This document shows, piece after piece, positions 8,759-31,125 of a DNA stretch of 36,965 nt. The notes under the pieces were generated by a model. It was not told the DNA's origin. It searched no databases and saw only the letters and a list, made by a program, of their open reading frames with translations. Origin of the DNA: a virus; the IMG/VR virus record IMGVR_UViG_3300012936_000057, positions 1 to 36,965 of that record; one strand, written 5' to 3'. Each line of letters begins with the position of its first letter. The stretch's first letter is position 1. Both the position numbers and the translations under genes were made by a program.

Positions 8759-9055
8759 ATGACTAATAGATACGCAAATATAAGCATAATTGGTAAAAGA
8801 TTTTCTACAAGAAATAATAATCAGTTAATATATAAAGCCTCAAAGAGTGGACAACTTTCTGTTAGAAGGCATATTTTAAAACAAGGTGAACGATTAGACC
8901 ACATTGCATTTAACGAATACGGAAACGGAAATGATTGGTGGGTAATTGCTGCTGCTAGTGGAATTGGATGGTGGTTGCAATTACCTCCAGGCACTGTTTT
9001 AACAATACCTACAAATTTAAGTCAAATTAGAGATTTGCTTGGGATTGTCGCATGA
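8759..9055 (+). CDS. LysM-like baseplate wedge protein (gp53 / tail protein X type)
   Basis: This 98-aa protein carries one LysM-like fold: RRHILKQGERLDHIAFNEYG, then NDWWVIAAASGIGWWLQLPPG and TVLTIPTNLSQI. The 'V--GDrLd-IA---YG----WW-Ia-aN-i--P--L-PG--L-IP' pattern is that of small LysM baseplate proteins such as T4 gp53 and P2 tail protein X, which link wedge or hub parts rather than act as enzymes. ATG 8759 follows GGAG within the previous gene's last codons. Its stop overlaps the start of the hub gene (ATGA), so the two are probably translationally coupled. The fold call is firm; which T4 protein it replaces is inference. Confidence 0.75.
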   Translation: MTNRYANISIIGKRFSTRNNNQLIYKASKSGQLSVRRHILKQGERLDHIAFNEYGNGNDWWVIAAASGIGWWLQLPPGTVLTIPTNLSQIRDLLGIVA

Positions 9056-13436: not shown

Positions 13437-13465
13437 TTGTAAAATAGAAAATCAATGCATAATAT
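13437..13465 (+). promoter_or_regulatory. Promoter of the family A polymerase gene
   Basis: TTGTAA (13437-13442), 17 bases, TAATAT (13460-13465). This is the same box and spacing as before thyX2. An alternative -10, CATAAT at 13458, would give a 15-base spacer. The predicted start site falls at about 13472, on or beside the A of the polymerase ATG. Confidence 0.5.
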
Positions 13466-13471
13466 AAAAAT

Positions 13472-14503
13472 ATGTTTGATATACCATATGATATTAGTTT
13501 AAATGAGTGGACAAAATATACTAGCTTTCTATCAGACTTTACAAATGACTTTAGACTATTAAAAGAAACAATTCCTGATTATAAACAACAAGAATTTCAA
13601 GCTTTTTTAAAAGAACAAAAAGTCATTATAGAAGAAAAAGATAAGGACTGGAATTATAATGCTTTATTTAAAAAATATATTATTCTATTAGATAACTTAG
13701 AAAGAACAAGTATTGATGGCCTTGCTTTAAAAACATTCCAAAATATTGAAAAAAACGAAACAATTTTATCAAACCTAAAAACTTTTGAACCTAAAGGTGG
13801 TAAAGCAAACAAAGTTGTCTATAATTTAAAAGGCACATCAACAGGTCGTTTAACAGTCAAAGAAGGCCCAAGTATTTTAACACTGCCAAGAAGATATAGG
13901 TCTATTATTAAATCTAGACACCAAGGCGGTAAAATTATTAATGTTGACTTTGTATCTCTTGAACCAAGATTTGCAAGAGCGATTACAAACAATAACGTAG
14001 AAAAAGATGTGTACAATGAAATATCTAGTTTAACTGATATTGTTGTTGACCGGTCAGTTATAAAGCAAGCAGTTCTTTCATCATTATATGGTTCTACAAA
14101 AGACAAACGACTTGATAAACTGTCTCTTGAAAGGTCAAAACAAATAATGGAAGTGGTTTGGAATTATTTTGACTTAGAAAACACAAGGTCAAAGTTTTCT
14201 ACAAAAGATAAATGGGGATATACACGAAATTATTTTGGTAGACCTTTAACAATTAATTCTGATAAAGAAAATATTATATACAACAATTATATTCAAAGTT
14301 CTTGTGTAGATATATCTTTGCAATATTTTTATCAGTTTGTAAATGATTTAAAATCAGACTTAATTTCTCCGCTTTTTATTCTTCATGATGCACTTATTTT
14401 GGATGTAAGCAGCTGCCAGCTAGGCAAGGTAAAAAGTTATATCGATAAACCATACGAAATTGCAAATCTTGGACATTTCTATTTGGATATGAGTATTTTA
14501 TAA
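13472..14503 (+). CDS. Minimal family A DNA polymerase (polymerase core only)
   Basis: This 343-aa protein holds the palm-fingers-palm core of family A (Pol I/T7-type) polymerases and little else. In order: TGRLT near residue 124 (the 'TGRLSS' loop), motif A NVDFVSLEPRFARA with D159, motif B R194-xxx-K198 and Y206-G207 (the O helix), GYTRNYFGRPL near 249 (as in 'GYVETLFGRRR'), NNYIQSSCVDI near 271 (as in 'NTPIQGTAADL') and motif C LHDALILD with D306. Both catalytic Asp residues are kept. Position 202 is Leu where Pol I has Phe762 and T7 has Tyr526. The Glu after the motif C Asp is Ala. There is no 3'-5' exonuclease domain; only about 120 residues precede the core. There is no Shine-Dalgarno before the ATG, and the promoter is placed for a leaderless mRNA. 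It may serve repair or gap filling beside the DnaE polymerase encoded at the window end. Confidence 0.85.
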   Translation: MFDIPYDISLNEWTKYTSFLSDFTNDFRLLKETIPDYKQQEFQAFLKEQKVIIEEKDKDWNYNALFKKYIILLDNLERTSIDGLALKTFQNIEKNETILSNLKTFEPKGGKANKVVYNLKGTSTGRLTVKEGPSILTLPRRYRSIIKSRHQGGKIINVDFVSLEPRFARAITNNNVEKDVYNEISSLTDIVVDRSVIKQAVLSSLYGSTKDKRLDKLSLERSKQIMEVVWNYFDLENTRSKFSTKDKWGYTRNYFGRPLTINSDKENIIYNNYIQSSCVDISLQYFYQFVNDLKSDLISPLFILHDALILDVSSCQLGKVKSYIDKPYEIANLGHFYLDMSIL

Positions 14504-17638: not shown

Positions 17639-17667
17639 TTGTAAATTAGGTTCTTCGTTGATAAAAT
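17639..17667 (+). promoter_or_regulatory. Promoter of the recA gene
   Basis: TTGTAA (17639-17644), 17 bases, TAAAAT (17662-17667). Predicted start is about 17674, giving a 19-base leader that still contains the Shine-Dalgarno AGAGG (17679-17683). The -10 box overlaps the left arm of the hairpin described in the next entry. Confidence 0.55.
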
Positions 17668-17689
17668 ACCTCTATAAAAGAGGTATTTT
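17663..17689 (+). promoter_or_regulatory. Hairpin sequestering the recA ribosome-binding site; possible terminator
   Basis: ATACCTCT (17666-17673), loop ATAAA, AGAGGTAT (17679-17686): an 8-bp perfect stem extendable by about three A-T pairs. The right arm contains the recA Shine-Dalgarno, AGAGG, 10 bases before the ATG at 17693, and is followed by a T run. In RNA coming from ssb the site would be buried and transcription might stop. RNA started at about 17674 lacks the left arm, so the site is free. T4 uses the same trick for gene e. Confidence 0.55.
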
Positions 17690-24763: not shown

Positions 24764-24792
24764 GTATAAAAAGACCTCTTTCATCTTATAAT
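24764..24792 (+). promoter_or_regulatory. Promoter of the clpP-like gene
   Basis: GTATAA (24764-24769), 17 bases, TATAAT (24787-24792). The -10 is perfect; the -35 is a weaker version of the TTATAA box. Predicted start is about 24799, 17 bases before the ATG. Confidence 0.5.
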
Positions 24793-24815
24793 ATGCTTAC
24801 AAAAGGCAGGTATAT

Positions 24816-25418
24816 ATGAGATGTTTGCATGATATTGATAAAAACATTAAAGAAATTGAACTTAGAAAAGACCCGATTATTATTCAAGTTAATGACTTTA
24901 ACGAAGCAGCAGCGCTAAACTTTAGAAGTAGTATGTCAATAGCACATAATACTGGGCAAAAAGTTGTTCCAATTATTATTGATTCTTATGGCGGGCAAGT
25001 ATATTCTCTTATGTCAATGATTTCTGCAATTAAAGATGCAACTCTACCAGTTGCAACTATTGTAACGGGTAAAGCAATGTCTTGTGGCGCCATTCTTGCA
25101 TCTTTTGGTGCTGATGGTCATAGATATATGGACCCGGATGCAACAATTATGATACATGATGTGTCATCAGCATCATTTGGTAAAGTTGAAGAACTAAAAG
25201 CAGATGCTGCAGAATCAGATCGACTTAATAAAAAAGTTTTTACTATGATGGCAAGAAACTGTGGTAAGCACGATACTTATTTTTTGGAAAAAATTCATGA
25301 AAAAGGTCACGTTGATTGGTATTTAGAACCAGACGAAGCTGTCAAATGTAATCTTATCAATCATAAAAAATTGCCAACAATGAACATTAAAATAATATTA
25401 GATATTGATTTAGTATAA
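24816..25418 (+). CDS. ClpP-like serine protease
   Basis: This 200-aa protein has the ClpP/crotonase fold and a complete catalytic triad: S89 in GKAMSCGAILAS, H114 in TIMIHDVS and D167 in GHVDWYLEPDEAV, each in the ClpP context. IIIDSYGGQVYSLMSM is the 'nSpGG' oxyanion strand. ClpP needs a partner unfoldase such as ClpX or ClpA; none is seen here, so it may pair with host ClpX/ClpA or act on small peptides. Phage ClpP-like proteins also serve as prohead proteases, but this gene lies among metabolic genes under its own promoter, not in a head module. ATG 24816 follows AGGCAGG. The last 18 residues (KLPTMNIKIILDIDLV) are an extra tail. Confidence 0.8.
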   Translation: MRCLHDIDKNIKEIELRKDPIIIQVNDFNEAAALNFRSSMSIAHNTGQKVVPIIIDSYGGQVYSLMSMISAIKDATLPVATIVTGKAMSCGAILASFGADGHRYMDPDATIMIHDVSSASFGKVEELKADAAESDRLNKKVFTMMARNCGKHDTYFLEKIHEKGHVDWYLEPDEAVKCNLINHKKLPTMNIKIILDIDLV

Positions 25419-26254: not shown

Positions 26255-26953
26255 ATGATAAAAGAAAAACTATATCTTTATGATGATAATATTGGTCATA
26301 TTAGCTTAGTTCAATGTATGGGTGACGAGCTAACAATTGTAAATGCTGCTAGAGTATCTTTTGGCGTTGAAAAATCATCTTTAGATGATAGAGATAAAAA
26401 GCTAATTAAGTATCTTATTAAGCATAAGCATACATCTACTCTAGAACATAATTTTGCAACATTTATTATTGAAGTTCCTTTGTTTATTCGTTCACAGCAT
26501 CATCGTCATCGAACGTGGAGTTATAATGAAATTAGTAGAAGATATACTGACTATGACATGAAGTTTTACTATCCAAGTTCTTTTAGAATGCAATCAAAGT
26601 CAAATCGACAAGCTTCTACAGATGATTTAGTAAATCCTAATATTTTAGCAGGTTTTGGTGGTGAAGGTAAAGCGTCTGATATTATTCATGAACATTGCGA
26701 GGATTCACTAGAATTATATAATCAACTAGTTAAAAAAGGTGTTTCTAGAGAACAAGCACGAATGATTCTTCCACAAAACCTTTACACAAAATATTACGCA
26801 ACAGCAAACTTAAATAATATACTAAAGTTTATTGACTTAAGAATACATGAAGGGGCACAATGGGAGATTCAACAATTAGCAAAAAGCATGCTAGAAATTA
26901 TAGTAAATATTTGGCCTTACGCAACTAACGTGTATAGAGATTTAAGAGTTTAA
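26255..26953 (+). CDS. thyX: Flavin-dependent thymidylate synthase
   Basis: This 232-aa ThyX makes dTMP from dUMP using methylene-tetrahydrofolate and FAD/NADPH. The defining motif RHRTWSYNEISRRY (residues 84-97) fits RHRxxSxNExSxR exactly. KHTSTLEHNFATF upstream and GVSREQARMILPQNLYTKYY downstream match the family, and LRIHEGAQWEIQQLA is the usual 'R---AQ-EI---A' end. It is a canonical copy, in contrast to the altered paralogue at 30148. It lies in an operon of small unknown genes and a MazG-like gene, and works with the dUTPase at 21226, which supplies dUMP. Confidence 0.93.
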   Translation: MIKEKLYLYDDNIGHISLVQCMGDELTIVNAARVSFGVEKSSLDDRDKKLIKYLIKHKHTSTLEHNFATFIIEVPLFIRSQHHRHRTWSYNEISRRYTDYDMKFYYPSSFRMQSKSNRQASTDDLVNPNILAGFGGEGKASDIIHEHCEDSLELYNQLVKKGVSREQARMILPQNLYTKYYATANLNNILKFIDLRIHEGAQWEIQQLAKSMLEIIVNIWPYATNVYRDLRV

Positions 26954-27970: not shown

Positions 27971-28665
27971 TGAATATAATCAGTGAAAAAAGCTTACAAA
28001 AATTTATGTTTACAGATGATAGCTTTTCACTGCTTGCCATAGACTTATTTGATAAACTTACACCTATGTTTTTAAATAATATAGGTCTTTTTGAAAAATG
28101 TTCTATTAGTTTTAATATTGATAATGACTGTTCACATATTTTAGTTGAAAATAGCTTTTTTCAAAAAGAATTTGAAGAAAAATTTAAGTTCAATAGCTAT
28201 AATATAATGTTAAATACACTTTTATCTTTTGAAGGAAACTTTGTATTTAATATTACGGATTCAAAAAATAAATTTGTTTTTATTGAAAGTTTTTATTGTT
28301 TTTTTAGTGATAAGAAAAATGATGATGATGATATTGATGATGGTATTATCCTCATAAGAGGAAACTACAAAGGTAACTTAGACGATTTTTATCATTTCAA
28401 AAGAGAGTTTTGTGTTAACGTTGCTCCTGAATTAATAAAAGCATATTATAGAATTTTTCATTATGACGAAAAAATAAAAAATAATAAAGACTTTATTACA
28501 CGTCTTTATTTTGAAAAAATTAATACTTTATATCATTTAAAATATTCAAAAGAAGATATAGAAAATTATTACTTAAAGTATTTAGAAAATGATAATTATA
28601 ACAAAGATATTGTTTTTGAAAAATTAAATTACGCGTATAAAAGGTTTTATAATGAAAGCGAATAA
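27970..28665 (+). CDS. Hypothetical protein
   Basis: This is a 231-aa protein, very rich in Phe, Asn, Asp and Lys, with no family I recognise. There is an acidic low-complexity stretch (DKKNDDDDIDDG, near residues 115-126) encoded by repeated GAT triplets. The C-terminal 80 residues are Tyr/Lys-rich helices. There is no signal peptide or membrane span. The start overlaps the MazG-like stop by one base (TAATG) without a clear Shine-Dalgarno, so it depends on coupling. Its extreme AT-rich codon use is similar to its downstream neighbour. Confidence 0.6.
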   Translation: MNIISEKSLQKFMFTDDSFSLLAIDLFDKLTPMFLNNIGLFEKCSISFNIDNDCSHILVENSFFQKEFEEKFKFNSYNIMLNTLLSFEGNFVFNITDSKNKFVFIESFYCFFSDKKNDDDDIDDGIILIRGNYKGNLDDFYHFKREFCVNVAPELIKAYYRIFHYDEKIKNNKDFITRLYFEKINTLYHLKYSKEDIENYYLKYLENDNYNKDIVFEKLNYAYKRFYNESE

Positions 28666-29083
28666 AAAATTACTTGAAGTATTTTTAAAAGAAGAATTAA
28701 AAAGTATATTACAAGACGAACTAGAAAGTTCTGAATATAATGAAACAGAGTTAGACCTTGACAATGAAAGTAAGTCTGAAGTTGACTCTGAATTAACTAG
28801 TTTAATTAATAATATAGCAACACATAAAAATCCATCTTCAATTAACTTGTTTTTAAAAGGTGTTGCTAATAATATAACAGGACAAGACTCTTTAGATGAT
28901 TCTGCAACAAGTATTCAGATAAAAATGGCGAGTATACTTGTTTGTTACTATTTTCTTGTAATATCTACAGACTATAAAATTACAATTTCAGAATTTAATA
29001 GAATTAAAAATATTATGCTTGAACAATTAGAACACAGTCAAGTTCAAGATTTAAAAGTTCTTTTTGACGAAATAGACGACTAA
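28652..29083 (+). CDS. Hypothetical acidic protein
   Basis: This is a 143-aa protein. Residues 1-50 form a charged helix and an acidic linker (LEVFLKEELKSILQDELESS, then ETELDLDNESKSEVDSEL). Residues 55-143 are helical with a hydrophobic segment (IKMASILVCYYFLVIS) that is probably a buried helix, not a membrane span. No family is recognised. It overlaps the preceding gene by 14 bases (ATG 28652). It ends just before the promoter and hairpin of the MazG-HAD gene, and so closes this transcription unit. Confidence 0.55.
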   Translation: MKANKKLLEVFLKEELKSILQDELESSEYNETELDLDNESKSEVDSELTSLINNIATHKNPSSINLFLKGVANNITGQDSLDDSATSIQIKMASILVCYYFLVISTDYKITISEFNRIKNIMLEQLEHSQVQDLKVLFDEIDD

Positions 29084-29085
29084 GT

Positions 29086-29114
29086 TTATAAAATTATAAT
29101 TTGGCCTCTATAAT
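29086..29114 (+). promoter_or_regulatory. Promoter of the MazG-HAD fusion gene
   Basis: TTATAA (29086-29091), 17 bases, TATAAT (29109-29114). Predicted start is about 29121, just after the left arm of the hairpin and 10 bases before the ATG, so the transcript starts at the Shine-Dalgarno itself. Confidence 0.55.
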
Positions 29115-29126
29115 TTAATTAGAGGT
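29104..29126 (+). promoter_or_regulatory. Hairpin sequestering the ribosome-binding site of the MazG-HAD gene
   Basis: CCTCTA (29105-29110), a nine-base AT loop, TAGAGG (29120-29125), with a G-U pair outside. The right arm is the Shine-Dalgarno. The left arm and loop carry the -10 box, so local transcripts lack the left arm while read-through transcripts from the upstream genes would fold it. The architecture matches that at recA, including the CCTCT/AGAGG core. Confidence 0.5.
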
Positions 29127-29130
29127 GAAA

Positions 29131-30078
29131 ATGGATTTAAAAAATTACCTAGAATTACAAGAAAAGTTTTCTAAATATTTCTATGACAAAGACAACATGT
29201 CTTTAAAAGAAAAAGAAGAAATGATAAAAACTCTTTCATTGTCTTTACATAATGAAGTGTCACAAGTAGTTTCTTCAACTAATTATAAATTTTATGATAA
29301 AAAAGAATATAATATTGATAAAGGTAAAATTTTATATAAGTCTGTAGACACATTTAGATATTTATTAGCTTTATTGAATTTATGTGACATTAATGAAAAT
29401 ACTTTTTTAAATGCTTTTAATCATAGAGATAATTACTTGCATAAAAAAGTTAAATATAAAAGTTCAAATAAACCTGTTGTTGTAATTGATATTGATGATG
29501 TTCTGCTTAGCTTTAGATTTACATTCAACGAATGGATTAGAAATAATTATAACGTTTATATTGATGACAATTCTGACCAATATTACTCTTCTATTGCAGT
29601 TAAAGAAATAGGGCTAAGTCCTGAAACAGTTTTTGAAGACTTTATAAAAGAAGATGGTTTACTATCTATTCCTGCGCTTAAAAACGCTTCAGAAATGACT
29701 CGTATGCTTAGTGACTTAGGATATGAAATACAATTACTTACAAGTAGACCAGAGAAAAATTTAAGATGTAAATATCAAACTCTTCAGAGTCTTCTTAACA
29801 GTAGCATTACATTTGATAAACTAAACTTTTCTTTTGAAAAATATATTTGGCTAGCAAAACAAAAATTCTATCTAGACGGAAGATTTAAATTTGCTATTGA
29901 TGATTCACCAAAACATACAAGTGAATATGCAAATCATGATGTGCCTGTAGTAATGCCAATTTATGAATATAATAAGTCTATTTTAGAACATCCGAAAAGA
30001 AAAGATTATATTATTGATACTTCTTTAGAAAATATGCACTCTAGAGTTTTAGAAATAGCTAATAGTTTTCTACATTAA
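29131..30078 (+). CDS. Fusion of a MazG/dUTPase_2-like domain with an HAD-family 5'-nucleotidase
   Basis: This is a 315-aa protein. Residues 25-105 look like a MazG/dUTPase_2 domain (LHNEVSQVVSSTNYKFYD, then KSVDTFRYLLALLNLCDINE), although the second E---D motif keeps only the Asp (D73). Residues 115-300 are an HAD phosphatase of the 5'(3')-deoxyribonucleotidase type: motif I VVIDIDDVLLSF (D120, D122), motif II LLTSRP (T204/S205) and motif IV FAIDDSPKH (D257/D258). A complete enzyme would take dNTP to dNMP and then to the nucleoside; loss of the Glu suggests the first domain may only bind. I choose ATG 29131, which fits the Shine-Dalgarno AGAGG, over GTG 29125, which lies inside it. Confidence 0.7.
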   Translation: MDLKNYLELQEKFSKYFYDKDNMSLKEKEEMIKTLSLSLHNEVSQVVSSTNYKFYDKKEYNIDKGKILYKSVDTFRYLLALLNLCDINENTFLNAFNHRDNYLHKKVKYKSSNKPVVVIDIDDVLLSFRFTFNEWIRNNYNVYIDDNSDQYYSSIAVKEIGLSPETVFEDFIKEDGLLSIPALKNASEMTRMLSDLGYEIQLLTSRPEKNLRCKYQTLQSLLNSSITFDKLNFSFEKYIWLAKQKFYLDGRFKFAIDDSPKHTSEYANHDVPVVMPIYEYNKSILEHPKRKDYIIDTSLENMHSRVLEIANSFLH

Positions 30079-30147: not shown

Positions 30148-31125
30148 ATGCCGTTAAATAATAATATTAACCCAATTACTCTTCCAATGGACCTTAAGTT
30201 TGGACAGTCTTGCAATACAGCATTTCAAAACAATTTGGATGCACTTAAGGTAGAGTTAATTGATGCACCTACAAGAGAACAAGCTCATGATGTTGCATGG
30301 TGTTATACAAAAGCAACTTGGGCTGATGACCCTTGGCAGTCTTCTCCTGACAATGTTTCTGTACGTGATAAGTCACTTAATCTTATTGATGTACTTAACT
30401 TTAGAGCTCTTCCTACCCCTATGGAATGTCTTGGTTTTACGTTTAGAATTAGTGGTATTTCCTTACAGACTGTAACACACCTTATTCGCCATCGTGCAGG
30501 TTCATTTGCAGCACAATGCACAGGTGATCGCGATCTTCGTGATGATCCAGCAGTTGTTCCAGAGTCAATTGAAAACTCTCCAGAATTTTACGAAAGATAT
30601 CGAAATCTTGTTTTTGAAACAAAGCAGCTTTACGCTGATATGGTTGATTCAAAAGTTGTATCAATGATGGATGCTCGTGTCATTCTTCCTAAATGTCTTA
30701 CATCTTTTTATTACGCAAGATTTAATATTAAGGATTTAATTGGTCTAGTTCGACAACGTCAAGATGTACAAATTCAGCCTGAAGTTGATAATATTCTTGC
30801 AACTCAAATGGCGCGTCTTATTTGTGAGCGTATTCCAGAGTTTTCAACTGTCCTTGACTTTGATCGTCCTGATGTGCATTATATTAAGACTTTTCGTGTA
30901 AAGGAAGGAGATGTTTGGACAAGCAAAGGAACAAACCTTTATCAGCCTGAGCCAAAAAATGACTCGTTTGATTATCACGAGCAAGATACAATTTATCCTT
31001 GTCGTCGTGAAGCTCTTAACGGAACAGATGGCCAACCTTTTCAAAAGTCTTTTACACGCCTATGGGATGCTGATGTTACAGCAATTAATGATATTCGTAC
31101 AACACTAAATGAGGAGAATGCTTAA
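30148..31125 (+). CDS. Divergent ThyX paralogue with altered active-site motif
   Basis: This 325-aa protein clearly has the ThyX fold but not its full signature. TVTHLIRHRAGSF (residues 108-120) matches 'q-lRHRtgSf', keeping R114-H115-R116 and S119. The next part, AAQCTGDRDLRD (121-132), replaces the usual NE-SGR: Asn and Glu are Ala, a Cys (C124) appears and two residues are inserted. DARVILPKCLTSFYYARFN and IGLVRQRQDVQIQPEVDNI match the ThyX C-terminal half. The protein is about 100 residues longer than the canonical ThyX at 26255, with a C-terminal extension from about 240 containing two further conserved-looking blocks. It may methylate or hydroxymethylate a pyrimidine other than dUMP. 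It is first in an operon with a deoxyribosyltransferase-like gene and a glycosylase gene. Codon use is less AT-biased than in the ORFs before it. Confidence 0.7.
   Translation: MPLNNNINPITLPMDLKFGQSCNTAFQNNLDALKVELIDAPTREQAHDVAWCYTKATWADDPWQSSPDNVSVRDKSLNLIDVLNFRALPTPMECLGFTFRISGISLQTVTHLIRHRAGSFAAQCTGDRDLRDDPAVVPESIENSPEFYERYRNLVFETKQLYADMVDSKVVSMMDARVILPKCLTSFYYARFNIKDLIGLVRQRQDVQIQPEVDNILATQMARLICERIPEFSTVLDFDRPDVHYIKTFRVKEGDVWTSKGTNLYQPEPKNDSFDYHEQDTIYPCRREALNGTDGQPFQKSFTRLWDADVTAINDIRTTLNEENA

Follow-up and report, generated by a model that had tools for sequence, protein, structure and literature searches.

A clade-type promoter across the 5' half of a predicted translation-blocking hairpin at the MazG-HAD gene of an uncultured tailed phage

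In bacteriophage T4, long early transcripts of e, soc, 49 and I-TevI have their Shine-Dalgarno sequences and/or start codons sequestered, and at e and I-TevI a promoter located in the hairpin's 5' strand gives rise to short, translatable transcripts that lack this strand (PMC3014915). The genes soc, 49, segB and Aeh1 mobE have been named in reviews as being similar to e and I-TevI (PMC3014915, PMC2988022). For the homing-endonuclease genes segB and Aeh1 mobE, a ribosome-binding-site hairpin is formed on the polycistronic read-through RNA, while the transcripts from the promoter miss its 5' arm (PMC2988022).

The locus described here belongs to an uncultured tailed phage, and the window that was analysed is the whole virus record of 36,965 bases. 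Its T4-like parts include a baseplate protein, a gp32-type ssb, RecA, an exonuclease, a DnaB-like helicase and a ribonucleotide reductase. Searches of isolated phages, either by DNA or with the MazG-HAD protein, returned no relative of the MazG-HAD region or of its protein. Two separate genes of the Thy1 family (ThyX-type thymidylate synthase) are present on this one phage fragment, at 26255-26953 and 30148-31125. The features around the MazG-HAD gene are as follows.

28652 to 29083, forward strand: open reading frame upstream of the MazG-HAD gene and co-directional with it, ending 47 nt before the ATG
29086 to 29091, forward strand: -35 hexamer TTATAA of the clade promoter, whose consensus is TTGTAAAATAG
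29092 to 29108, forward strand: promoter spacer of 17 nt
29105 to 29110, forward strand: left hairpin arm CCTCTA, upstream of the predicted +1, its last two bases being the first two of the -10 hexamer
29109 to 29114, forward strand: -10 hexamer TATAAT, its first base 22 nt from the ATG
29120 to 29125, forward strand: right hairpin arm TAGAGG, containing the Shine-Dalgarno sequence, with the predicted +1 inside it at 29121
29131 to 30078, forward strand: MazG-HAD gene, encoding a 315-aa protein of nucleotide-metabolism type

The likeness to e and I-TevI consists in a promoter within the 5' half of the hairpin and in a start region that is predicted to be masked in read-through RNA. With segB and Aeh1 mobE the locus shares a predicted ribosome-binding-site hairpin in read-through RNA and a promoter transcript predicted to lack the 5' arm, but the MazG-HAD gene encodes no homing endonuclease and the stems vary among its orthologs. 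We regard it as marginally probable that the MazG-HAD gene is translated, in the T4 style, only from its own promoter, which would overlap the 5' half of a hairpin that blocks translation, and that it is masked in read-through RNA. If this is true, a translational timing device of T4 late genes would also operate in a distant and uncultured phage lineage, at its replication and nucleotide genes, where it would be driven by a different promoter class. The switch would then be conserved by its geometry while its sequence changes, and would be missed by sequence-based searches.

The gene starts with the ATG at 29131. A GTG in frame with it at 29125 is an unlikely start, since the relatives carry GTA (L261, L262) or GTT (L264, L266) at that position. 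The domain scores of the product are weak and tentatively indicate a MazG/dUTPase-like N-terminus and a HAD-type phosphatase C-terminus; its AlphaFold model (mean pLDDT of 57.5) was too poor for use. No terminator-like site was called between the upstream open reading frame and the MazG-HAD gene, and read-through is therefore plausible.

The promoter belongs to a type that recurs in the clade. A two-block model was iterated over 151 gene starts from the window and its relatives, and it yielded the consensus TTGTAAAATAG-N12-TATAAT with a spacer of mostly 17 nt, present at 32 of the 151 starts versus about 1 expected, an enrichment that is somewhat inflated as the model was trained on the same 32 sites. 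All 32 sites pass a threshold of 12; among shuffled upstream regions 0.8% reach it, and among coding windows 0.1%. This promoter is not of the TTGACA type. At the MazG-HAD gene it has been kept in five lineages, namely the window, L261, L262, L264 and L266 (protein identities to the window of 82%, 77%, 65% and 66%, respectively), with ATGTAA or TTGTAA at the -35 position of the orthologs and a distance of 22-23 nt from the -10 to the ATG in every case; it was not found at this gene in the more distant L267-L270. As judged by motif and conservation, the promoter at the MazG-HAD gene appears solid. Its predicted +1 is A29121, seven bases after the -10, which would leave a leader of 10 nt, AGAGGUGAAA. 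At 13437-13472 the clade promoter (TTGTAA-N17-TAATAT) is located only 12 nt from an ATG, as it also is in A1 (the L262 phage) at 28616 and in G004 at 8861; the predicted +1 at 13437-13472 falls on the start codon, and a leaderless mRNA is therefore predicted.

The T4 late promoter (TATAAATA, gp55) has no -35 element. In contrast, the MazG-HAD promoter TTATAA-N17-TATAAT has a -35-like element, which is a conserved block, as well as a TATAAT box, and does not conform to the T4 late type. Because the promoter type differs, we do not file the MazG-HAD case as a T4 late-gene switch. The clade promoter looks early or middle rather than late, since it combines a -35-like TTGTAA with a TATAAT box and stands ahead of recA and genes of nucleotide-metabolism type.

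The earlier note had placed TTATAA-N17-TATAAT over a CCTCTA/TAGAGG hairpin with its right arm on the Shine-Dalgarno sequence, and every one of these elements was found at its position. Including a flanking G.U pair, the hairpin has a predicted folding energy of -8.8 kcal/mol. The read-through RNA (60 nt) folds better than 200 of 200 shuffled sequences (z of -3.5), whereas the RNA from the own promoter has only a fold of -4.7 kcal/mol, which is not better than that of shuffled sequences; in this fold the Shine-Dalgarno sequence is predicted to pair weakly with codons further downstream. A helix over the Shine-Dalgarno sequence and/or AUG is thus predicted for the read-through RNA, and the promoter motif is placed such that the own transcript would be without the 5' arm. 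Beyond the motif, its conservation and the geometry, we infer a start site at the MazG-HAD gene, transcripts that read through into it, repression of its translation and whatever timing results. Transcripts reading through from the upstream operon would contain both arms, so that the Shine-Dalgarno sequence would be paired and the protein poorly made. Transcripts from the own promoter, starting at about 29121, would miss the left arm and would be translated. The output of the MazG-HAD gene would in this way be tied to the period in which its own promoter, the clade-type promoter spanning the 5' half of the hairpin, is active.

The CCTCTA left arm is absent at the MazG-HAD gene in all orthologs, including all four other promoter-bearing lineages. 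These four have hairpins of the same geometry with other stems: TAAGTCCA/TGGACTTA in L261 and L262 (AAGTCCA/TGGACTT; TAAGTCC/GGACTTA), AATACTTTTT/AAAAAGTATT in L264, where part of the Shine-Dalgarno sequence is paired inside, and TAATTCCA/TGGAATTA in L266 (AATTCCA/TGGAATT), with predicted energies of -5.6 to -10.1 kcal/mol. Their left arms lie on the promoter side of the +1, which is crossed by about one base in L261/L262 and L264, and what the arm covers is chiefly the start codon and the earliest codons rather than the Shine-Dalgarno sequence. The geometry proposed earlier, with a predicted start at about 29121, a 10-base leader devoid of the left arm and the right arm on the Shine-Dalgarno sequence, holds in the window and recurs as a design in orthologs with different stems. 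The -10, GAGG and ATGGA are nearly constant among the orthologs (GAGG is invariant across the five lineages), and the interval between the -10 and the Shine-Dalgarno sequence reads TTAATT in the window and AAGTCC, ACTTTTT or TCCACA in the orthologs. Between L262 (AAGTCC/GGACTT) and L266 (AATTCC/GGAATT) there is a G-C to T-A difference, but the left arm is offset by 3 nt with respect to the -10, and we therefore did not score this difference as covariation.

The best-surviving alternative is that, beside a real promoter and a real Shine-Dalgarno sequence, the short hairpin has arisen by chance in an AT-rich region of 40 bases, the gene being merely promoter-led. We consider this quite possible. 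It is favoured by the lack of the left arm in orthologs, by the many genes examined and by shuffle p-values of 0.06 and 0.14 for the window under two metrics. Moreover, about 0.4 such stems are expected among the window genes. The perfect stems of at least 6 bp on the Shine-Dalgarno sequence that were observed number 2 in 32 window genes versus 0.37 expected (p of about 0.05); in the clade there are 5 in 141 genes versus 1.0 expected. However, a hairpin of this geometry, of one kind or another, is present in each of the four orthologous lineages, and the window segment ranked first of 30 when promoter segments were swapped among natural ones.

All p-values for the hairpins are neither independent nor corrected, as the lineages share ancestry and the metrics were tried in succession; with this reading, shuffling of the promoter segment gave p-values for the opening energy of the initiation region of 0.04 in the window, 0.04 in L261, 0.018 in L262, 0.03 in L264 and 0.54 in L266. 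For the best stem across the +1, they were 0.06 in the window, 0.02 in G005 (the L261 record), 0.04 in A1, 0.02 in L266 and 0.65 in L264, the stem of which extends beyond the region examined in this test. In the natural swaps the window, G005, A1 and L266 each ranked first of 30 for this stem. Under a stricter criterion the window was still first of 30 with a shuffle p-value of 0.14, and L261, L262 and L264 dropped out. For the window hairpin alone, p ranged from 0.03 to 0.14 by metric. When 34 promoter-led genes were ranked by the strength of their promoter-to-leader stems, the top seven were all recA (3 of 3) or the MazG-HAD gene (4 of 5). A hairpin rule for all promoters of the clade was rejected, most of the 32-34 promoter-led genes being without effect. 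Altogether, these comparisons lend moderate support to the promoter/hairpin design, and weak to modest support to the MazG-HAD stem of the window taken by itself.

The features at recA are the following.

17639 to 17667, forward strand: recA promoter TTGTAA-N17-TAAAAT, with the clade promoter motif
17663 to 17689, forward strand: recA hairpin AAAATACCTCT/AGAGGTATTTT of 11 bp, with the Shine-Dalgarno sequence in the right arm

The left arm of this hairpin begins inside the -10 and extends as far as the predicted +1. In relatives it has 13 bp with a G.U pair, and in L006-L010 the arms are conserved and the loop is changed. The opening-energy p-value was 0.005 in all three records, two of which are identical in sequence there, leaving two independent cases. 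On this evidence recA appears to be a stronger case of a promoter-embedded hairpin than the MazG-HAD gene. A DNA-pattern scan with the recA arms returned mostly unrelated phages among the matches listed. In L083, L084 and L085 the best recA segment spans only about query residues 1-235 to 1-247, possibly owing to an insertion or frame change.

The earlier note took the switch before recA to be repeated at the MazG-HAD gene, and saw in this a reused regulatory cassette. The CCTCT/AGAGG core does match exactly, but only the Shine-Dalgarno sequence and its complement are common to both sites. The core recurs because the right arm is a Shine-Dalgarno sequence in either case, and it is bound to be common to any pair of hairpins that mask an AGAGG Shine-Dalgarno sequence. 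A scan of the window for CCTCT-N3-20-AGAGG gave two sites, this one and one before recA at 17669, versus 0.17 expected; at least two were obtained in 3 of 100 shuffles. The exact motif is absent from 5 of 6 relative records, and the one match is an unassigned near-palindrome in G003. Since no further homology was found between the two sites or in the relatives, the idea of a cassette was abandoned.

That the MazG-HAD hairpin is a transcription terminator or attenuator of the upstream operon is very improbable. The recA hairpin has a T-run, and most of the distant relatives (L012-L085) have at their ssb-recA junction a hairpin resembling a terminator, with the Shine-Dalgarno sequence outside and arms differing by lineage; however, the hairpin at 29105-29125 is followed by TGAAAATGG and not by a T-run, as an intrinsic terminator would be after its GC stem, and it was not called terminator-like. 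Because of the junction hairpin of the distant relatives, the recA hairpin may be an ssb terminator fused with the recA start, which would terminate ssb transcription too. We regard as possible, though less likely than not, the combined proposal that a rule of left arm in promoter and right arm on start is selected while the stem letters turn over freely, leaving the orthologs with the switch but with unrelated hairpins, and that the recA hairpin also terminates the ssb transcript. A DNA operator, in which the inverted repeat at the -10 serves as a protein-binding site and the folding of the RNA has no role, is very improbable: the repeat overlaps the -10 and its core recurs at recA, but its letters vary among orthologs while its placement relative to the +1 is constant, which fits base pairing better, and the relative records mostly lack the exact motif.

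Lastly, a Clp-protease-like gene (24816) has a promoter and a long hairpin over its start, at 24764-24830. This hairpin (-12.8 kcal/mol) ranked first of 32 in swaps with a shuffle p-value of 0.02, and those of the orthologs are weaker; the gene may represent a third promoter-embedded hairpin.
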